Source: an uncultured Variovorax sp. (GTDB lineage: Bacteria; Pseudomonadota; Gammaproteobacteria; Burkholderiales; Burkholderiaceae). From it: a DNA stretch of 18,459 nt. The stretch is taken from positions 1-18,459 of the forward strand of contig CAMLCW010000060.1 in assembly GCA_946478645.1 (NCBI GenBank). The letters run 5' to 3'. Shown here one piece after another: positions 418 to 9,316 of this stretch. The notes below the pieces were generated by a model. The model did not search any database. It saw only the letters and a program-made list of their open reading frames with translations, and was not told where the DNA came from. The first letter of the stretch is position 1. The number at the start of each line of letters is the position of its first letter. The position numbers and the translations under genes are program-made.

Positions 418-565
418 TTACCTTTTCAACCATTGACGTGCGCCGCGTCACTCCGCGCATCCGCGTGCGCCGGCGAAGTGGTTCGAGGGGCTAGACTTGG
501 TTTCCCGACTTTCTCCGGGGCGTGCTGTGCGGTGCAGCGCAGCGCGCCTCCTTGCTCCCCTGCCC

Positions 566-1036
566 ATGGCCGCTTCCACTCCGACCCGAACCGTTCCATC
601 CCGCGCCGCGCAAGCGCCCGCGGCCGCGCAGCGCGGCACGCGCCAGAAGGCCGCGATCCGCAGCGTGATCGACGGCTCGGCGCGGCCGCTGCTGCCGCAG
701 GAGATCCTCGAGGCGGCGCAGCAGGAGGTGGCCGCGCTGAGCATCGCCACCGTCTACCGCAACCTCAAGCTCCTGGCCGAGGCCGAGGAGATCCGCGCGG
801 TCGAGCTGCCGGGCGAGGCGCCGCGCTACGAGTCGGCACGGCATGGCCATCACCATCACTTCCAGTGCCGCACGTGCGCACGCGTCTTCGACGTGCACGC
901 CTGCCCGGGCAACTTCTCGGCGCTGGCACCGAAGGGATTCCGCGTCGATGGGCACGAGCTGACGCTCTACGGGCAGTGCGCCGACTGCCGCAGGCAGGAT
1001 GCCGCGCCGCGCGCGGCCCGGAAGAGCGCCGGCTGA
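566..1036 (+). CDS. Fur-family metal-responsive transcriptional repressor
   Basis: A 156-aa Fur-superfamily protein that represses metal-uptake or stress genes when its metal is bound. The winged helix spans about residues 25-85, with the recognition helix ALSIATVYRNLKLL (57-70). The C-terminal dimerisation domain has the His cluster HGHHHHF (93-99) and two CxxC structural-zinc pairs, C101/C104 and C138/C141. The acidic residue usual in the HHDH motif of true Fur is replaced by His, and the protein is not the canonical housekeeping Fur, so Zur-, PerR- or other metal sensing is possible. The start is uncertain: ATG 566 has no clear Shine-Dalgarno, while TTG at 497 follows GAGGGG with good spacing and would add 23 non-conserved residues. 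It diverges from the TonB receptor and converges on the bufferin operon; the stops are 21 bp apart. I infer that it may control one or both. Confidence 0.88.
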   Translation: MAASTPTRTVPSRAAQAPAAAQRGTRQKAAIRSVIDGSARPLLPQEILEAAQQEVAALSIATVYRNLKLLAEAEEIRAVELPGEAPRYESARHGHHHHFQCRTCARVFDVHACPGNFSALAPKGFRVDGHELTLYGQCADCRRQDAAPRAARKSAG

Positions 1037-1057
1037 GGCGCCGCGGGCAAGCCTGGT

Positions 1058-1837
1058 TCAGCGCCCGGTCAGGCCGGCGAGCAGTTCCTCGTCGAGCCAG
1101 CGCTGCAGCCAGCGGCCGGCGGTCTCGGCCACCTCCTGCGCGCGCTCCGGGTCTTGCGCCGCCATCTGGCCGCACAGGTCGGCGAAGCGGCTGCCGTCGT
1201 GCAGCATCTGCAGCGCATCGCGCTCGTCGGCGGCGATGCTGCGGAAATGCGGCTGCAGTTGCTTGCGCCACACCATCACCGTTTGCGGTGCAGCCAGCGC
1301 CTGCACGGCCGGCGGCGCCTGCTCGCCGTCGAGCGCGAGCCAGAGCGCGAGCGTGTTGTGGCGCTGTTCGAGCAGCGTCCAGGTCGGCACCGGCGCGAAG
1401 CCGACCTCGGCCCAGGCATCGAGCGGCAGGGCGGCCAGGTCTTCGCGCTGCAGCACCGGGCTGTCGCGGCCGTCGAAGGCGCGCCGCAGTGCCCAGTCCA
1501 TTTGCGCGAGCTCGCTGCGTACGGGCGCCTCGGGGCAGGCCTCTTGCAGCCAGTGCGGCCATCCGGCGCCGTAGTCGTTGAGGCTGTGGCCCTGCGAGGG
1601 ATGAGCATCGATCCAGGCCAGCGCGAGCGCGTCGAACTCGTCGTCTCCGAGCCAGCGGGCCAGGTGGCCGTAGCTGTCCTTCAGCGCGGCGAGCAGGCGC
1701 AGCCGGTAGCCGTCGCGGTAGATCGCGAGGCGCCGCGCAATGCCGATGCCGCCGCGCTGCAGCGCGCCGGCGATCGCTTCGTCGCCATGCAGCAGGTGCG
1801 CCTGCAAGGCTTGCTGCAGCGCGGCCAGCGCTGTCAT
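1058..1837 (-). CDS. bufC: DUF2063 protein, BufC-type partner of the MNIO enzyme
   Basis: A 259-aa protein whose N-terminal part (about residues 4-95: [52 protein letters not shown]) is the DUF2063/BufC domain. Family knowledge: DUF2063 proteins are obligate partners of DUF692 (MNIO) enzymes and are thought to recognise the precursor peptide and present it for cysteine modification in the cytoplasm. The C-terminal half is Trp/Leu-rich and less recognisable. The start ATG overlaps the bufB stop by 4 bp (ATGA), so it is translationally coupled as the third gene of the operon. No DoxX-like fourth gene (bufD), which often follows in such operons, is present downstream; the next gene is the convergent Fur-family regulator. 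Confidence 0.88.
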
Positions 1838-2685
1838 GCGGCTTCCCGCAGCGTGTCGGCCGCGATGCGGCGCGCGAGGTCGAGCTCGGCCAGCAGTTCG
1901 GCCAGCGGCGGGATGTGGTCGTCGCGTTCGATCATCGTCGCGACCGGGCCGAAGCGCTGCAGCGCCGCGCGATAGAGCGCCCATACCGGGTCGGCCACGG
2001 GATGGTCGTGCGTGTCCACGAGGTGGTCGCCATGGTCGGTGTGGCCGGCCAGGTGAAACTGGCGCACGCGGTCGACCGGCATGGCGCGCAGGTACGCGAG
2101 CGCATCGAAGCCGTGGTTCACCGCGCTGACGTGCACGTTGTTGAGGTCGAGCAGGATCAGGCAGTCGGCCTGCTGCGCGACCTGCGCAAGAAATTCGGAC
2201 TCGGCCATCGTCGAGGCCGAGAAGCTCAGGTAGCTCGACACGTTCTCGAGCAGGATGCGCTGCCCGAGGACATCCTGCACCTGCTGCACATGGCGCACCA
2301 CGAGCCGCAGCGCTTCTTCGGTGCAGGGCAGCGGCAGCAGGTCGTGCGTGTTGTGGCCGTTGACGCCGGTGAAGCACAGGTGGTCGGAGATCCACATCGG
2401 CTGCACCCGGTCGGCCAGCATGCGCAGCTTGTGCAGGTAGAGCGGGTCGGGGCCGTCGACGCTGCCGATCGACAGCGACACGCCGTGCATCGCGACCGGA
2501 TAGCGCTCGCGCAGCGCGTCGAGCGTGGCGAGCGGCTTGCCGCCCGGGACCATGTAGTTGTCGGAGATGACCTCCAGCCAGTCCACCGGCTGCGGCGCAT
2601 CCAGGAAGTCGCGGTAATGGGCCGTACGAAGGCCCAGGCCGAAGCCGGGCGCCGTGCCCGGCCGCAAGGCAGGCGCCGCGTGCAT
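1834..2685 (-). CDS. bufB: Multinuclear non-heme iron oxidase (MNIO, DUF692), BufB type
   Basis: A 283-aa TIM-barrel protein of the DUF692/UPF0276 family. Opening residues [15 protein letters not shown] (14-28) and [11 protein letters not shown] (35-45) are typical, followed by candidate metal-binding motifs in order: [10 protein letters not shown] (66-75), SDHLCF (100-105), [11 protein letters not shown] (145-155), [11 protein letters not shown] (178-188), FHLAGH (210-215), DTHDHPV (224-230). Family knowledge: MNIO enzymes use a di- or tri-iron centre and O2 to turn precursor cysteines into heterocycles such as thiooxazole, making copper- or other metal-binding RiPPs (methanobactin, bufferins). 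The gene begins 3 bp after the bufA stop and overlaps bufC, placing enzyme and partner directly behind the likely substrate. Full family length; no key motif appears lost. The exact modification made here is inference. Confidence 0.93.
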
Positions 2686-2688
2686 GGC

Positions 2689-2982
2689 TTACTTCTTGGC
2701 CGTGATGTCGCCGATCACGCCGTTCTTCGACAGGCATTCGCCCGCGGGCGCGGCCTTGAAGCTGTGGCCCTTGCAGGCGTTCTGGCCCTTGCAGGCGTTC
2801 TCGGTGGTCTTGCAGTCGGCCATGCCCTTGCACTCGTGCAGGCCGTAGCAATGCACCTTGTCGCTCGCCGCGATGGCCTGGCCGGTGCTGCCCTTGGGCG
2901 GGGTCGCGGCGCAGGCCGAGAGCGCGAACATGGCGGCGGTGCCGGCGATGGCGGCGGCAAAAGAAGGCTTGGTGAGGGACAT
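2689..2982 (-). CDS. bufA: Bufferin-type Cys-rich RiPP metallophore precursor (BufA-like), possibly lipidated
   Basis: A 97-aa exported peptide: Sec-type signal (residues 1-23) then a short mature part with six cysteines, C45, C51, C57, C64, C70 and C83, arranged as CKG repeats (CKGMADCK, NACKGQNACKG). Its position immediately before the MNIO and DUF2063 genes, its size and its cysteines fit the substrate of BufBC: cysteines are modified in the cytoplasm and the peptide is exported to the periplasm to sequester excess metal, mainly copper in studied cases. The CKG pattern differs from the common DUF2282 bufferins, so it may belong to another bufferin subfamily. Unusually, the signal ends in LSAC (21-24), a good lipobox, so it could be a lipoprotein. 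GGAGAA precedes the ATG. Precursor identity rests on context plus Cys pattern; the bound metal is unknown. Confidence 0.82.
   Translation of the reverse strand: MSLTKPSFAAAIAGTAAMFALSACAATPPKGSTGQAIAASDKVHCYGLHECKGMADCKTTENACKGQNACKGHSFKAAPAGECLSKNGVIGDITAKK
2766..2801 (-). repeat. Perfect 18-bp tandem duplication inside bufA
   Basis: Two identical 18-bp units abut (2766-2783 and 2784-2801). In the bufA frame each unit encodes one Asn-Ala-Cys-Lys-Gly-Gln/His repeat, so the duplication added one cysteine (C64 or C70). Identity without even a silent change suggests a recent event. Confidence 0.9.
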
Positions 2983-3009
2983 GTGATTTCTCCGAAATGA
3001 TGATGTTGA

Positions 3010-3033
3010 AAAGGCCGCGCCGGATGGCGCGGC
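3010..3033 (-). promoter_or_regulatory. Hairpin in the bufABC leader, attenuator-like
   Basis: On the minus strand an uninterrupted 8-bp G+C stem, GCCGCGCC/GGCGCGGC with loop ATCC, is followed by CTTTTC. It lies between the proposed ECF promoter and the bufA ribosome binding site, about 31 nt before the ATG. It resembles an intrinsic terminator with a short U run, so it could act as a leaky attenuator or as an mRNA-stabilising hairpin. The stem is seen directly; the function is inference. Confidence 0.55.
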
Positions 3034-3077
3034 ATCCTTCCCCGGACACGGACGCAGGCTGCTGCGGCCGTGGGATC

Positions 3078-3105
3078 AGTTCGGAGGCGTTTGCGCAGGG
3101 TTACA
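3078..3105 (-). promoter_or_regulatory. ECF-sigma-type promoter of bufABC
   Basis: On the minus strand, TGTAACC (-35; GTAACC at 3104-3099) is followed after 15 nt by CGAACT (-10; 3083-3078). As I recall, a GTAACC / CGAA pair with this spacing is the promoter of ECF sigma-F-type regulons that drive heavy-metal-induced bufferin operons in Caulobacter. No sigma-70 elements of similar quality are visible. The predicted transcript start near 3070 leaves a leader of about 90 nt. No ECF sigma gene is present in this window. Confidence 0.6.
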
Positions 3106-3200
3106 TCGCACAGGCCGTGGACCGGAATTTCGGTGCGGATGAATTTACGGGTGTTAAAAATGCCGGCATCGCGCGCGATGGACGCGCCGGAAAAGCGAAG

Positions 3201-3899
3201 TCAGGACGGCCGGAGCGCCTTGATCCGACGCCAGAGCACTGCGGGCGCGATCGAAGACATTTGCAGCACGGCCATGCAACGGGCCAGGCGACCCTCGCGG
3301 ACCCGCAGCGCGTCGACGGCCTTGGAAAGGTCTTCGTCGATGCTGTTGCCGTAGGCTTTCCTGGCCTTTTCCGCTGCTCGGCGCAGCAGCGTCGAACCTG
3401 TGTTCATCATGGCCAGATCGATGAGGTCGCGACTGAACACGCTGTCGTCGGCCCAGCGGTCCGAGTTCGCGAGCAACTTTCCTGCCGCCATGTCCAGGGG
3501 CGTGAGTGCGAGAACGCCACCCAACATGTCGTGCGGCCCCGGAAGTTCGAGTTCGATGCGGGCCTCGAGCACGATTTCGAACTTGATGTCGACGTCGCTC
3601 ACCCGCACCGCTGACCGGATGCCGTATTGGTCGGCGCGAAGTTCTGCGGCTTGGGCCACATCGGACCCCCGGCGTATCAGTGCGCCGAGACTTTGATTTC
3701 CGGTCAGCGCCTGGCGCAACTGCCGGTATCCATCGATGTCCGAGACAAGGAAGTCGATGTCCAGGGATTCGCGGAACTCGCCGTAGCGAAGCGCGATGGC
3801 CGTACCGCCGCCGAAGAAACAGTGGTTGTGGGCCAGCATGTCCGCGTCCAATGCGGCGAGCACCTGTGCGATGCGCTGATGGTGCGGGCGTTCAAACAT
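3201..3899 (-). CDS. AbiEii-type nucleotidyltransferase toxin
   Basis: A 232-aa DNA-polymerase-beta-fold nucleotidyltransferase of the AbiEii/AbiGii family. Visible motifs: FFGGGTAIALRYG (28-40), then the catalytic acidic pair SLDIDFLV (45-52), a possible third Asp in VSDVDIKFEIV (100-110), and the family's Lys and RDL-D segment (MAAGKLL 137-143; SRDLIDLAMM 156-165). Family knowledge: such toxins (AbiEii, MenT) are the toxin half of two-gene modules that limit growth or phage infection; studied MenT toxins add nucleotides to tRNA acceptor ends. The start ATG overlaps the antitoxin stop by 8 bp, so translation is coupled. Length is at the short end but complete. The cellular target here is unknown. 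Confidence 0.87.
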   Translation of the reverse strand: MFERPHHQRIAQVLAALDADMLAHNHCFFGGGTAIALRYGEFRESLDIDFLVSDIDGYRQLRQALTGNQSLGALIRRGSDVAQAAELRADQYGIRSAVRVSDVDIKFEIVLEARIELELPGPHDMLGGVLALTPLDMAAGKLLANSDRWADDSVFSRDLIDLAMMNTGSTLLRRAAEKARKAYGNSIDEDLSKAVDALRVREGRLARCMAVLQMSSIAPAVLWRRIKALRPS

Positions 3900-4362
3900 G
3901 CAGCGGTTTCTTGCCGAGCATTTGCGCCAAGTCTTCGAGAAGACGGCGCTCCCGCTCGTCGAGAAGCGCCGGATCCATGTGGCGCCAATTGCGTTCGTAG
4001 ATGCCCCATGCTTCCGCGGGCGTGAGCTCGGTGCCGGGCGCCAACTGCCACGCGAGGCGGCGCAGTTGCGGGTAATCCGCGACCGGGATGCCTCCGGGCA
4101 CAGCCAACAGGGCGGACGGCCCGAACGATGGGACCACGTCGACGCCGAGCCCGAGTGCCTCGAGCGCATTCATGTAGGCCCCGATGGTGACCGAGGGCTC
4201 GCCCCGCTCGATGCGGTGCAGCGTCATCCGTGACACCCCAGCGGCTTCCGCTGCATGCGTGGCGCTGACTTTGAGCGCCTGGCGGCGCGCACGGATGTGC
4301 CGGCCGAATGCCTGCAGGCGGCGGTCTGCCGTCGCTGTGGTCGGAGGAGAAGAAGACGGCAT
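3892..4362 (-). CDS. XRE-family helix-turn-helix antitoxin/autorepressor
   Basis: A 156-aa protein with an XRE/Cro-type helix-turn-helix at about residues 18-73 (FGRHIRARRQALKVSATHAA, AGVSRMTLHRIERGE, IGAYMNALEALGL) and a distinct C-terminal part (PQLRRLAWQL, LTPAEAWGIYERNWRHMD, ERERRLLEDLAQMLGKKPLHV minus its last residue) that probably contacts the toxin. It precedes and overlaps the AbiEii-type toxin gene, so it is the likely antitoxin and repressor. The ATG at 4362 is chosen because the other in-frame ATG at 4374 lies inside the proposed -10 element; the transcript would start only about 4 nt before 4362, giving a nearly leaderless mRNA. Canonical AbiEi antitoxins have a different winged-helix fold, so this is a hybrid arrangement, though XRE/AbiEii pairs are known. 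Confidence 0.85.
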   Translation of the reverse strand: MPSSSPPTTATADRRLQAFGRHIRARRQALKVSATHAAEAAGVSRMTLHRIERGEPSVTIGAYMNALEALGLGVDVVPSFGPSALLAVPGGIPVADYPQLRRLAWQLAPGTELTPAEAWGIYERNWRHMDPALLDERERRLLEDLAQMLGKKPLHV

Positions 4363-4372
4363 GGTGTATCTC

Positions 4373-4400
4373 ATGTTAGACAAATTGCCAGGTTTGTCCA
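4373..4400 (-). promoter_or_regulatory. Sigma-70 promoter of the toxin-antitoxin module
   Basis: Minus strand: TGGACA (-35, 4400-4395), 16-nt spacer, TAACAT (-10, 4378-4373). The expected start near 4366 is only a few bases before the antitoxin ATG at 4362, pointing to leaderless or near-leaderless translation. The spacer contains most of the palindrome at 4379-4398. Confidence 0.65.
4379..4398. promoter_or_regulatory. Palindromic operator GACAAA-N8-TTTGTC
   Basis: A perfect 6-bp inverted repeat with an 8-bp spacer lies over the antitoxin promoter and overlaps the -35 of the divergent gene. The half-site/spacer geometry resembles operators of HipB-type XRE repressors (half-sites separated by 8 bp). 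It is the obvious autorepression site for the XRE protein; binding would also block RNA polymerase facing the other way. Confidence 0.7.
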
Positions 4401-4422
4401 GAACCCCCTGCGCCGCTATGCT
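4394..4422 (+). promoter_or_regulatory. Sigma-70 promoter of the AI-2E-family gene
   Basis: Plus strand: TTGTCC (-35, 4394-4399), 17-nt spacer, TATGCT (-10, 4417-4422). The start near 4429 gives a leader of about 23 nt to the ATG at 4452. The -35 shares bases with the palindrome and with the opposing -35, so the two promoters are face to face and mutually exclusive in part. Confidence 0.6.
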
Positions 4423-4451
4423 GGCCCGTTCCTGCGGGCCCGCTGACACAC

Positions 4452-5588
4452 ATGACCGCTCCATCGCCCCGACCGCCGAGCGAAGACAACGCATCGCCGC
4501 GCCGCGACACCGGCTGGTTCACGCGCGCGCGGACGTCGGCATTGCTCCTGATGGCGGCCACGGCACTGGCGCTTTACCTGTGCTGGAAGATGGCCGAGCC
4601 CTTCATGCCCGCGATGGCTTGGGCGCTGACGCTTGCGATCCTCGGTGCGCGCATGCACCGCCGCCTCTGCGAGCGCCTGCGCAGGCCGAACCTCAGCGCC
4701 GGCCTCGTGACGGGCCTGCTGTGCGCGCTGGTGGTCGCGCCCATCGTGGCCTTTGCGCCTTCCGCGGTGAACAGCGCGGCGGAGGGCTGGGACCGGATGC
4801 GGTCCGAATCGGTGCGGAGCCGCGTCGACAAGGCGGTGCAGGCGCAGCCCGCGCTGGCGCCGGTGGTCGAATGGGTGGCGCGGCAGGCGCCGTCGGGCGA
4901 GGACATTGCCAAGCAGGTCGCGCCGCGAATGTCGGGCCTGCTCGCGGGTTCGATCTGGGCCGGCGTGCAATTGCTCGTGACCTTCTTTGCGCTGTTCTAC
5001 CTGCTGCGCGACCGGGCGCAGGCGCTCGCGTACGTGCGCACGATGCTGCCGCTCACGGGCACCGAAACCGACCGCATGTTCCAGCGCGTCTCGGAGGTGG
5101 TGCGCGCGAGCGTGCTCGGCACGCTGCTGGTGGCCGCGGTCCAGGGGCTGCTGGGCGGTCTGATGTTCTGGTGGCTCGGCCTTCCGGCGCCGCTGCTCTG
5201 GGGCACGGTGATGTTCCTGCTGTCGATCCTGCCGCTGCTCGGCGCGGCGGCCGTCTGGGTGCCGGCGGCGCTGTTCCTGCTGCTCGAAGGCAGCTGGGAG
5301 AAGGCGCTGGTGCTGACCGTCTGGGGCTCGGTCGTGGTGGCGCTGATCGACAACCTGCTCTATCCGATCCTGGTCGGCGACCGGCTGCGGCTGCACACGC
5401 TGGCGGTGTTCGTCGCGATCGTGGGCGGGCTCGTGGCGTTCGGCGCGCCGGGCGTGGTGATCGGTCCGCTGGTGCTTGCGCTGACCGTGGCGCTGCTGGA
5501 GATCTGGCGCGACCGCACGCGCTTCGGGCGGGCGGCGGATGCCGCGCCCGCCGGGGGCACCGGCAGCGGCAGCGGGGGCAGCGGCTAG
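4452..5588 (+). CDS. AI-2E family (PerM/YdiK-like) inner-membrane transporter
   Basis: A 378-aa polytopic membrane protein of the AI-2E (formerly UPF0118/PerM) family, with about 7-8 hydrophobic segments: two near the N-terminus (about residues 28-70), one at about 90-115, then, after a soluble loop (115-170), a C-terminal cluster containing the family's signature stretches (LLVTFFALFYLLRDR; PLLGAAAVWVPAALFLL; LIDNLLYPILVG; FGAPGVVIGPLVLAL). Members export small molecules or ions (autoinducer-2 in some, Na+/H+ exchange in others), so the substrate is open. The tail is a low-complexity Gly/Ser run. No good Shine-Dalgarno precedes the ATG. It is divergent from the toxin-antitoxin genes and 62 bp ahead of the GntR gene, which probably belongs to the next unit. 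Confidence 0.9.
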   Translation: MTAPSPRPPSEDNASPRRDTGWFTRARTSALLLMAATALALYLCWKMAEPFMPAMAWALTLAILGARMHRRLCERLRRPNLSAGLVTGLLCALVVAPIVAFAPSAVNSAAEGWDRMRSESVRSRVDKAVQAQPALAPVVEWVARQAPSGEDIAKQVAPRMSGLLAGSIWAGVQLLVTFFALFYLLRDRAQALAYVRTMLPLTGTETDRMFQRVSEVVRASVLGTLLVAAVQGLLGGLMFWWLGLPAPLLWGTVMFLLSILPLLGAAAVWVPAALFLLLEGSWEKALVLTVWGSVVVALIDNLLYPILVGDRLRLHTLAVFVAIVGGLVAFGAPGVVIGPLVLALTVALLEIWRDRTRFGRAADAAPAGGTGSGSGGSG

Positions 5589-6436: not shown

Positions 6437-7477
6437 ATGACCACCTTCCATCGACGCAGGGTTCTGCAGGCGGTTGCCGCATCGTCCACCGCACTGATCG
6501 CCGGGATGCCAGCCATCGTGCTCGGGCAGAAGCCGACCAAGTGGCGGATACAGACCCTCTGGAGTGCGGGCGAAGACGCCTTCAAGTACTTCGAGGAGTT
6601 CGCCGGGAAGGTGAAGGCCAACACGGGCGGCCGGCTCGAGATCCAGGCCTTCGCGGCCGGCGCCGTGGTGGGCGCCTTCGAAACCCTGGATGCCGTCAGC
6701 CAGAACGTGCTGCAGGGCCAGTCGACGTATCCCGGCTACTGGGCGGGCAAGGAGCCCGCGTTGGCCGTCATCGGCGACTTCGCCTTCGGCTACCGCTCGC
6801 CGGAGCAGCAAAACCGCTGGCTGTACGAGAAGGGCGGCCTCGAGATGCTGCGCAAGGCCTACCAGCGCTTCAACGCCTACACCGTGGGCGCGACCTGGTG
6901 GGGCGTCGAGTCGCTCACCTCGAAGAAGCCCATCCGGCGCCCTGAGGATTTCAAGGGCATCAAGCACCGCGGTGCGCAAGGCATCGCAGCCGAGACCATC
7001 GCCAAGATGGGCGCGTCGATCGTCGTGCTGCCCGGCGGCGAGGCCTACTCCGCCATCGAGAAAGGCATTGTCGACAGCGTCGACTGGTCCACGATTTCGG
7101 TCAATGCCAAGGTCGGTTTCTTCGAGGTCGCCAAGTACGCGACGTTTCCGGGCTTCCACTCGATGCCGATCCAGGATTTCACGGTCAACGCCAGCGCCTG
7201 GAAAAGCCTGCCCGACGATGTCAAGCAGATCCTCGAGCGGACCTGGCGCGAGTTCTCGACCACCCAGGTGAGCCGCATCGCCGAGAACGACCAGCGCGTG
7301 GCGGCGGAAGTGCAGAAGAAGGGCGTCGAACTGGTGGTGTGGTCGGACGCCGACATCGCCCGAGCGCGCCAGGTCGCCCAGGGCGTGGTCGACGAATGGG
7401 CCGCCAAGGGGCCGCTCGCCAAACAGGCGGCGGAATCCCAGCGCGCCTTCCTGCGTGAACTGAAGCTGCTGGCCTGA
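6437..7477 (+). CDS. TRAP transporter substrate-binding protein (DctP/FcbT1-TakP type)
   Basis: A 346-aa periplasmic binding protein. The signal (residues 1-30, HRRRVLQAVAAS then a hydrophobic run) has twin arginines and may be Tat- or Sec-dependent. The mature part follows the DctP pattern of the mannitol/chloroaromatic/keto-acid branch: GGRLEIQAFAAGAVVGAFE (64-82), YWAGKEPALAVIGDFAFG (101-118), FKGIKHRG (172-179) whose R178 should bind the substrate carboxylate, VLPGGEAYSAIEKGIVDSVD (197-216) and W217. It captures an organic acid anion and delivers it to the QM membrane pair. AGGAGA sits 8 nt before the ATG. First structural gene of the operon; the next ORF starts 5 bp after its stop. Family firm; substrate not predictable. 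Confidence 0.93.
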   Translation: MTTFHRRRVLQAVAASSTALIAGMPAIVLGQKPTKWRIQTLWSAGEDAFKYFEEFAGKVKANTGGRLEIQAFAAGAVVGAFETLDAVSQNVLQGQSTYPGYWAGKEPALAVIGDFAFGYRSPEQQNRWLYEKGGLEMLRKAYQRFNAYTVGATWWGVESLTSKKPIRRPEDFKGIKHRGAQGIAAETIAKMGASIVVLPGGEAYSAIEKGIVDSVDWSTISVNAKVGFFEVAKYATFPGFHSMPIQDFTVNASAWKSLPDDVKQILERTWREFSTTQVSRIAENDQRVAAEVQKKGVELVVWSDADIARARQVAQGVVDEWAAKGPLAKQAAESQRAFLRELKLLA

Positions 7478-7482
7478 CGCGC

Positions 7483-8007
7483 ATGAACCACTACGTCCGA
7501 TTCGTGGGGCATGTGAACGAGTGGGTGGGCCGGATTGCCGGCCTGCTCATCGTCGCAGTCGTCCTGATCATCCTCAAGGAAGTCATCGGCCGGGGCGTGT
7601 TCAATGCGCCCTCCCTCTGGGCCGACGAATCCATGACCTACCTGGCCGGCATGGCCTATGCGCTGGGCGGCGGCTTCACGCTGCTGCACCGCAAGCACGT
7701 GATCGTCGATCTGGTGTACCAGCCCATCGCGGACCGCGGCGGCTCCCTGAAAAAGATCGTCGACGTGATTGCGTTCGTCCTGTTCTCGATCTACTGCGTG
7801 ACGCTGATCTATTTCGGTGCGGAACTGGCCCTGGCGTCGATCCGCGAGCACGAGGGAAGCGGCACGCTGTGGAACCCGGCGCTGTGGCCCGTGAAGCTCG
7901 CCATTCCCATCGCCGGCGTCCTGCTGCTGCTGCAAGGCTTCGCCAATCTGCTGGTCGATCTCGGCCTTGCCCCCCACCCCGCTGCGGAAGACATTCATGG
8001 CCGTTGA
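7483..8007 (+). CDS. TRAP transporter small permease (DctQ)
   Basis: A 174-aa inner-membrane protein with four hydrophobic segments (about residues 15-35, 49-70, 87-110, 127-152), the small Q subunit of a TRAP transporter that supports the large permease and docks the binding protein. The conserved region SLWADESMTYLAGMAYALGG (44-63) and HRKHVIVDLVY (68-78) is the usual DctQ core. It starts 5 bp after the dctP-like stop and overlaps the large-permease gene, so the three are co-transcribed. Confidence 0.92.
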   Translation: MNHYVRFVGHVNEWVGRIAGLLIVAVVLIILKEVIGRGVFNAPSLWADESMTYLAGMAYALGGGFTLLHRKHVIVDLVYQPIADRGGSLKKIVDVIAFVLFSIYCVTLIYFGAELALASIREHEGSGTLWNPALWPVKLAIPIAGVLLLLQGFANLLVDLGLAPHPAAEDIHGR

Positions 8008-9316
8008 CACCCTGACCCTTCTCCTGCTGCTGGCGCTGGTTTCGGCGCTGGTGGTGGGTGTGCCCATCGCGTTCGCGACCGGCGCCGTCGCCGTGGTGTT
8101 CGGCGTCTGGCTGTTCGACGTCAACACGTTGAACCTGATCGTCAGCCGCGTCTTCACGCTCATGGGAAATCAGATCCTGGTCTCCGTGCCGCTGTTCATC
8201 CTGATGGCGATGGTGCTGGAGAAAGCCGGCATCGCGGAAGACATCTTCAAGGCCGCCTACGTGTGGTCCGGGCGCATCCGTGGGGGCCTCGCCGTCGCCG
8301 TGATCATCTCGTGCGCGCTGATGGCCGCCATGGTCGGCGTGATCGGTGCGGAGATCGTGACGATGGGGGTCGTGGCGCTGCCCGCCATGCTCAAGCGCGG
8401 CTATGGAAAGTCGCTCGCGCTGGGCTCGATCTGCGCCGGCGGTGGACTTGCCACGCTGATTCCCCCGAGCGTGGTCCTGATCATGTATGCGCTGACCACC
8501 GGCACATCGATCGGACAGCTCTACATGGCGGGCATCCTGCCCGGTGCCATGCTCGCCGGGCTCTACATCATCTATGTGGTCACGATCTCCTACCTGAAGC
8601 CCGAGATCGCACCCGCTGCGCCACCGGAGGAAATCAACATTCCGCTCGCGGAAAAGATCGGCTACCTCAAGAAGCTGATCCTGCCGGGCGCCGTGGCCTT
8701 CGGGGTCCTGGGTTCGCTCTACATGGGCATTGCCACGCCGACCGAAGCGGCAGGCATCGGTGTCGCCGGCGCGGTGGTGGCAGCCGCGGTGAACCGGCGC
8801 CTGAGCTGGGCCGGCATGTCCAGCGCCGTGGTGGAAACCACCAAGGTCACCTGCATGCTGTATTGGCTCTTCTTCGGTGCCTCTGCGCTGATCGGCATCT
8901 ACACCATTGCCGGCGGCACGCAGTACCTCAAGGACCTGATCGCCGGGCTGCCCATCGGCAAATGGGGCATCCTGCTGGTGGTCAACCTGGTGTGGGTCGT
9001 CCTCGGCTGCATCATCGACTGGATCGGCATCCTGCTGTTGACCGCGCCGATCTTCGTGCCCGTGCTCGTCGCCCTCGGCTTCGATCCGATCTGGATCGGT
9101 GTGCTGTTCTGCATGAACATGCAGATCTCCTACATCTCCCCGCCATTCGGGCCCGCGGCCTTCTACCTCAAGGGCGCCGCGCCGCCGGGGATCACGATGG
9201 GCGACATCTTCCGCTCGGTCTGGCCCTTCATCGGCATCCAGGTGCTCGCCGTGCTGCTGCTGGTCGCGTTCCCGGACATCGCGCTGTGGCTGCCGCGCAC
9301 CATGCTCGACAACTGA
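7997..9316 (+). CDS. TRAP transporter large permease (DctM)
   Basis: A 439-aa, roughly 12-helix inner-membrane permease of the DctM family, the Na+-driven translocation subunit. Recognisable stretches include VGVPIAFATGAVAVVFG near the N-terminus, the motif GGLATLIPPSVVLIMYALTT, PTEAAGIGVAGAVVAA, and the C-terminal MQISYISPPFGPAAFYLKG. The ATG at 7997 overlaps the small-permease gene by 11 bp and gives the usual N-terminus (MAVDTLTLLLLLALVSAL); an in-frame ATG at 7967 would add ten residues. The FAD oxidoreductase gene follows after 11 bp, tying transport to metabolism. Confidence 0.93.
   Translation: MAVDTLTLLLLLALVSALVVGVPIAFATGAVAVVFGVWLFDVNTLNLIVSRVFTLMGNQILVSVPLFILMAMVLEKAGIAEDIFKAAYVWSGRIRGGLAVAVIISCALMAAMVGVIGAEIVTMGVVALPAMLKRGYGKSLALGSICAGGGLATLIPPSVVLIMYALTTGTSIGQLYMAGILPGAMLAGLYIIYVVTISYLKPEIAPAAPPEEINIPLAEKIGYLKKLILPGAVAFGVLGSLYMGIATPTEAAGIGVAGAVVAAAVNRRLSWAGMSSAVVETTKVTCMLYWLFFGASALIGIYTIAGGTQYLKDLIAGLPIGKWGILLVVNLVWVVLGCIIDWIGILLLTAPIFVPVLVALGFDPIWIGVLFCMNMQISYISPPFGPAAFYLKGAAPPGITMGDIFRSVWPFIGIQVLAVLLLVAFPDIALWLPRTMLDN

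Follow-up and report, generated by a model that had tools for sequence, protein, structure and literature searches.

What does a compact three-gene operon near one end of a contig from an uncultured Variovorax sp. make, and is its chemistry new? We analysed a stretch of 18,459 nt (contig CAMLCW010000060.1, hereafter the window), in which a small cysteine-rich precursor peptide, an MNIO enzyme and a DUF2063 partner protein are encoded on the minus strand from 2982 to 1058. A sequence-only reading had called this a bufferin-type operon with a precursor unlike the characterised bufferins, and had suggested that its chemistry and metal may be new. We find a largely ordinary member of a family that has been described before, for which the chemistry and metal to be expected are known ones and not new. 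With high confidence we regard it as a Buf2-type bufferin (captophorin) operon, bufA2-bufB2-bufC2, probably controlled by a sigma-F/NrsF pair encoded elsewhere, in which thiooxazoles predicted at four Cys-Lys motifs would hold Cu(I). Very probably it makes a small cysteine-rich peptide that is modified by an iron enzyme and takes up excess copper outside the cytoplasm.

Family membership of the operon proteins

The precursor matches the NCBIfam model NF050166 ("BufA2 family periplasmic bufferin-type metallophore") with 88.3 bits over positions 2–78 of 79, the cut-off being 60. The MNIO protein reaches 382.3 bits with NF050167 ("MNIO family bufferin maturase", MNIO_BufB; cut-off 310), also matches PF05114 and stays under the cut-off of the HvfB model (265.7 bits; cut-off 360). 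The partner matches PF09836 (DUF2063) over residues 7–97 with 69.4 bits (cut-off 27.2, E = 3.2e-19). As all three proteins match family models at E 3.2e-19 or better and almost every one of the 80 related loci shows the same gene order, they are not chance findings. The name bufferin-type operon is right, precursor and MNIO being over curated NCBIfam cut-offs and the partner over that of Pfam. A search of the peptide against bufferin family models, which the sequence-only reading had asked for, places it in the curated BufA2 (Buf2) family described in PMC12452194 and PMC13097082, and the proposal of a peptide apart from the characterised bufferins, with possibly new chemistry and metal, has to be given up.

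The core cysteines of the precursor are C45, C51, C57, C64, C70 and C83. Their spacing of 6, 6, 7, 6 and 13 is as first read, and is identical in all 120 homologues listed out of the 226 that a protein search with the precursor found at E ≤ 0.001. The CKG repeats are also present, KG following C51, C64 and C70, and KT following C57; the precursor thus has four Cys-Lys motifs (C51K, C57K, C64K, C70K), with NACKG occurring twice. Neither EGKCG repeats nor a match to PF10048 (DUF2282) was found in it. Among the listed homologues the second to fifth cysteines are followed by Lys in 119, 113, 119 and 119 of 120, respectively, the first always stands in HCY, and the sixth is followed by Leu in 118. 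Judged by these contexts, the cysteines appear to match the Cys-Lys class and to split into outer and central ones. The description of the mature peptide as six-cysteine holds for the core; a seventh, C24, which the sequence-only reading had passed over, lies in a lipobox, so the count depends on which signal peptidase cleaves. A duplicated BufA2 with a lipobox was seen in Marinobacterium jannaschii (L053:5421-5909; two stretches, 135.7 bits).

Solved structures with sequence relatives were found for the MNIO protein, and none for the precursor or the DUF2063 protein. Aligned to 3BWW, the MNIO has D255-D256 and R20-T21 where 3BWW has ERDF and RR. In an alignment of 81 sequences, Asp256 follows Asp255 in 79, at the position of a Phe in 3BWW, and R20 is kept in all 81, while residue 21 varies. 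In Cys-Lys enzymes, an Asp replaces Phe250 of FonB and the second Arg loses its conservation (PMC13097082). The marks of a Cys-Lys captophorin are thus all found here: several Cys-Lys motifs, an Asp after the catalytic Asp, and a second Arg that is not conserved. Apparent fusions of MNIO and DUF2063 in one open reading frame (ORF) were observed in 10 of the 80 loci, from Acidovorax and others (L046, L049, L052, L061, L064, L066, L074, L076, L077 and L080); a word search of PMC12452194 did not find such a fusion.

The order precursor, MNIO, DUF2063 partner, with a 3-bp gap (bases 2686–2688) and a 4-bp overlap (ATGA, 1834–1837), was confirmed in the sequence (Table 1). The related loci are the best 80 of 338 fetched with the MNIO. 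A home-made bufA2 profile matches an ORF in 78 of them, and a DUF2063-like ORF is present in all 80; the arrangement is therefore a standard one. The sequence of L005 ends just upstream of the MNIO gene. Locus L071 has MNIO and DUF2063 genes and no recognised bufA2, and L050 has two bufA2-like frames, both on the strand opposite to the MNIO genes that they flank.

The operon lacks bufD, as had been read: no DoxX gene follows, and the next gene is the convergent Fur-family gene. As a distinctive trait, the lack of bufD was rejected, since DoxX was found beside only 6 of the 80 related loci. This screen took 63 hydrophobic ORFs, located between 2.8 kb ahead of the point where the DUF2063 frame ends and 2 kb past it. 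Pfam was run on 52 of them, the others being ten ORFs with a length of at least 418 aa and a duplicate from L004. DoxX was found in six ORFs, which is a lower bound given the short flanks of several loci. In four loci (L029, L059, L060, L062) a second MNIO gene and DoxX lie upstream of the bufA2-MNIO-DUF2063 operon on the same strand; the other two DoxX ORFs most likely belong to L072 and L078, on the opposite strand, as judged with a home-made model. As far as the screened flanks show, the absence of bufD is usual among the relatives.

Table 1. Positions of the operon genes and associated features in the window.
Feature	Position	Strand	Basis
bufA2, 97-aa precursor, ATG start	2982..2689	-	NF050166 BufA2 match
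bufB2, MNIO maturase (MbnB/TglH/ChrH family), 283 aa	2685..1834	-	NF050167, PF05114
bufC2, DUF2063 partner (PME-type 1), 259 aa	1837..1058	-	PF09836
GGAG ribosome-binding-site-like motif of bufA2	2993-2990	-	sequence
Lipobox LSAC at residues 21-24, with C24; overlaps a signal peptidase I-type A-C-A↓A site	2911..2922	-	sequence
Putative sigma-F-type promoter TGTAAC-N16-CGAA of the extracytoplasmic function (ECF) type	3105-3080	-	97 bp upstream of bufA2 ATG
Fur-family gene, convergent, downstream of the operon	497-1036	+	PF01475

Predicted maturation, metal and anchoring

From the gene content, the family membership and the conservation of residues and promoter-like sites we infer the following course of events. 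Metal stress in the envelope, chiefly from copper, would free a sigma-F-like ECF factor, whose gene lies elsewhere, from the anti-sigma factor NrsF, and the freed factor would start transcription from the 3105–3080 site. The putative Sec signal peptide of BufA2 may double as the leader for the BufB2-BufC2 complex, as in other bufferins. BufB2, a multi-iron oxidative enzyme, would convert C51, C57, C64 and C70 into 5-thiooxazoles at about −4 Da each, and C45 and C83 would join in a disulphide. Both predictions rest on residue conservation and on Buf1, whose central cysteines carry the modification and whose outermost pair is joined by a disulphide (PMC12452194). For four Cys-Lys sites and two outer cysteines the expected shift is about −16 Da for the heterocycles and −2 for the disulphide. 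The peptide would reach the periplasm, free or as a lipoprotein tethered through C24, and would there bind Cu(I).

A bufferin-type peptide with another chemistry or another metal, such as one for gold, cadmium, chromate or zinc stress, we hold to be very unlikely. The modifications of the Buf2 of Caulobacter vibrioides were not yet identified in PMC12452194, and FonBC left NACKG unprocessed, so the Cys-Lys enzymes have their own specificity (PMC13097082). However, the C. vibrioides Buf2 has a Buf1-like function, shows the same mass loss per cysteine and has an absorption maximum at 305 nm (PMC12452194), and all characterised MNIO-PME1 cases install thiooxazoles (PMC13097082). With regard to the metal, sigma-F operons of C. 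crescentus respond to chromate and cadmium too (PMC3511200), and the operon of the window is adjoined by the Fur-family gene and by a frame that resembles, by eye, the start of a TonB-dependent receptor. A tie to these two neighbours, with a zinc or iron role, was considered and rejected, as phmmer (E ≤ 1e-6) matched neither of them in the available flanks of any of the 80 related loci.

A copper-binding Buf2 peptide could be soluble or membrane-anchored. By eye, the N-terminus of the precursor is signal-peptide-like, with a positive n-region, a hydrophobic stretch, an A-C-A↓A site and a lipobox. In a 66-sequence alignment A26 is invariant and A23 and A25 are nearly so, and C24 takes the x position of this conserved A-x-A↓A site; lipidation and plain cleavage are therefore both possible. 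A lipoprotein bufferin, with C24 lipidated and the copper peptide anchored in the membrane as a minority form of Buf2, is compatible with the copper reading, and we put it slightly short of an even chance. The window shares the strict lipobox LSAC with P0002, its nearest relative, and about 16% of Buf2 members have predicted lipoprotein signal peptides (PMC12452194), which argues for anchoring. Against it, a strict lipobox occurs in only 6 of the 120 listed homologues, the window's own protein counted, and in 2 of the 77 loci when the window is included among them, and ordinary cleavage by signal peptidase I at the site read by eye fits C24 equally well.

Promoter-like sites upstream of bufA2

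In C. crescentus the sigma-F motif GTAACC-N16-CGAA, mapped by 5′ rapid amplification of cDNA ends, precedes CC2907 and CC3254 (PMC3511200); copper induces the sigma-F regulon, and a strain with a sigF::Tn5 insertion is sensitive to copper (PMC8224329). We compared the region upstream of bufA2 in 76 relatives and the window, four of the 80 loci having been dropped (L005 and L071 without a bufA2 hit, L050 with hits on the other strand, and the truncated L037); L003 and L004 carry the same strain name. In 52 of the 77 loci, the window included, the pattern TGTAA[CG]-N14-18-CGA was found 121–360 bp ahead of the codon for the first core cysteine, where the rest of the loci predict a background of 0.0035 matches per 240-bp region. 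The spacer is N16 in 34 loci, N17 in 18 and N14 in one, and N15 and N18 do not occur. Two classes of site can be told apart, TGTAAC...CGAA in 16 loci, including the window, and TGTAAG...CGA in 36.

NrsF (PF06532) was searched in the genomes of 23 of the 80 loci. It was found in 9 of 9 genomes with the TGTAAC-type site, in 0 of 5 with the TGTAAG-type and in 2 of 9 with neither, the latter two being Dyella with 61–63 bits. Comparing 9 of 9 with 2 of 14 gives a Fisher p of 7e-5, uncorrected for kinship, five of the nine being Acidovorax. Each of the nine strong NrsF loci has two divergent TGTAAC-N17/18-CGAA sites, and the two Dyella loci have none. By eye, the frames beside these sites are ECF sigma factor-like and Buf1 precursor-like, with a Pfam match confirming DUF2282 in the L081 frame. 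In Acidovorax another such site precedes msrP (L100 was scanned, with 488.5 bits to the MsrP model; three frames start alike), which parallels CC2748 (YedY), a sigma-F gene of C. crescentus (PMC3511200). Outside this genome count, Pfam confirmed nrsF and a gene for an ECF sigma factor in a Rubrivivax metagenome-assembled genome (L006:4302-5991); the two stand divergent to the bufA2 operon of that locus, which has a TGTAAC-type site.

The window site, like the lipobox not mentioned in the sequence-only reading, is 255 bp ahead of the codon for the first core cysteine, within the span of 195–343 bp seen at the other loci, and it is likely to be real. A chance match, with the operon driven by another promoter, seems rather unlikely to us: it has the low background and the position of the site against it, and no sigma-70 consensus promoter was found in 900–3500.

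Several observations nevertheless weigh against the assignment as a sigma-F-controlled Buf2 operon, and three of them (the shorter spacer, the genome-wide counts and the unseen source genome) speak for a chance match. The site patterns were picked after the sequences had been viewed, and an ECF-like site is missing in 25 of the 77 loci. The window has N16 and a −10 element CGAACT; among the remaining 15 TGTAAC-type sites the spacer is always N17, and 13 of the 15 have CGAAT. The window's spacer is thus one base shorter than theirs, and, read as GTAACC-N15-CGAA, one base shorter than that of C. crescentus. Genome-wide, the TGTAAC pattern is at control level, with 45 matches in eight genomes against 54 for the reversed pattern, and the weight of the site therefore rests on its position. 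The NrsF genomes are those of relatives and not the window's source genome, any sigma-F gene of which would lie outside the sequence examined. As to the proteins, BufC2 scores 29 bits with the HvfC model NF050145, far under its cut-off of 142, and NF050166 matches none of 14 control genomes, one of them that of C. vibrioides, in which NrsF was found; the best-studied Buf2, that of C. vibrioides, is thus too distant for the model. One later sentence of PMC13097082 calls the second Arg conserved in Cys-Lys enzymes, contradicting the logos of the same paper. Finally, the AlphaFold model of BufA2 is poor (mean pLDDT, the predicted local distance difference test score, 58), and is therefore no test of the predicted C45–C83 disulphide or of the heterocycle sites. 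Its block means are higher for residues 41–50 (C45; 68) and 81–90 (C83; 77) than over 51–70 (44–47).

The analysis also reveals the second promoter-like class. TGTAAG...CGA lies upstream of bufA2 in its 36 loci, for example L008, L010, L015, L020, L025, L031 and L040. Seven of eight genomes contain the exact form TGTAAG-N16-CGACTA a single time, always before bufA2, and the eighth does not contain it; the reversed pattern has one match in the eight. With the L006 sigma factor as the phmmer query, TGTAAG-type loci showed no sigma gene immediately next to bufA2; weak hits in L017 and L028 are over 3 kb away from it. In Neptuniibacter caesariensis (L069:4116-4802) a frame that resembles a sigma factor (40.8 bits with the L006 query) lies about 0.85 kb upstream of bufA2, at a locus that carries neither promoter-like site.

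A wider scheme would place betaproteobacterial Buf2 operons under two ECF-like kinds of control: sigma-F/NrsF through TGTAAC-N17-CGAA, shared with sigF, buf1 and msrP and one base shorter in the window, and another regulator through TGTAAG-N16-CGACTA, with the peptide of the window's lineage lipid-anchored. We offer this scheme tentatively, as somewhat doubtful in its entirety. The promoter link, if true, would tie Buf2 operons that have no local sigma genes to a metal-stress ECF regulon.

Neighbouring genes and comparison with known systems

Divergent from the Fur-family gene, the frame at 3–416 of the minus strand resembles the start of a TonB-dependent receptor by eye and has no Pfam match. 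Upstream of the operon and on its strand lies a gene for an AbiEii-type nucleotidyltransferase, with a helix-turn-helix gene that precedes and overlaps it (3201–4494), a possible type IV toxin-antitoxin-like pair. Further on, the plus strand carries a TRAP transporter set at 6437–9316, with a DctP-type binding protein and, after it, two frames read by eye as membrane proteins. Near DNA matches were found neither to plasmids (1000–4200) nor to Escherichia coli genomes (1800–2982). Rfam gave no match in the window at the gathering threshold, no terminators were found in 900–3500, and the region upstream of bufA2 held no convincing repeats.

With the Buf1 (DUF2282) bufferins and gig operons the operon shares the MNIO, the DUF2063 partner and, as predicted here, the copper response. 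The Buf1/gig operons of C. crescentus and Cupriavidus metallidurans both contain DoxX and have an ECF sigma gene beside them. Buf1 has four cysteines and the DUF2282 domain, whereas the precursor of the window has six core cysteines and lacks a PF10048 match. The EGKCG oxazolins/fontiphorins (HvfA, FonA) have the MNIO-PME1 pathway in common with the window, as well as 5-thiooxazoles and copper binding, which are predicted here. Their repeats are Lys-Cys, those of the window precursor Cys-Lys.

The C. vibrioides Buf2 is presumably CC2907 of C. crescentus. The operon CC2907-CC2905 (CCNA_03001-02999) resembles that of the window in its order of precursor, DUF692 and DUF2063 genes, and in having no doxX; it is under sigma-F, with a motif that the putative site of the window approaches to within one base of spacer, and differs in that CC2907 is labelled DUF2282 (PMC3511200, PMC8224329). 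The Cys-Lys group (BufA2B2C2) is presented in PMC13097082 with an AlphaFold model and sequence logos rather than a product structure; its precursors are placed among the captophorins and NACKG was tested as their common motif. The operon of the window shares with this group several CK motifs including NACKG, the Asp in place of FonB Phe250 and the loss of the second Arg (PMC13097082).

The 2025 survey of bufferins describes Buf2 (Buf_6/12Cys) as having six conserved cysteines in 90% of members (PMC12452194). The window shares the six conserved cysteines, the MNIO (NF050167) and the DUF2063 partner with this family, the N-terminus of its precursor is signal-peptide-like, and nothing structural differs. 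The difference lies in regulation: sigma-factor and NrsF genes were not found in the Buf2 clusters of the survey, and the term promoter is absent from its main text (PMC12452194), whereas a sigma-F-like promoter site is seen in the window, and bufA2 of L006 has nrsF and a gene for an ECF sigma factor next to it. Taken together, we conclude that the six-cysteine CKG precursor is a standard member of Buf2 and not a case of orphan chemistry.

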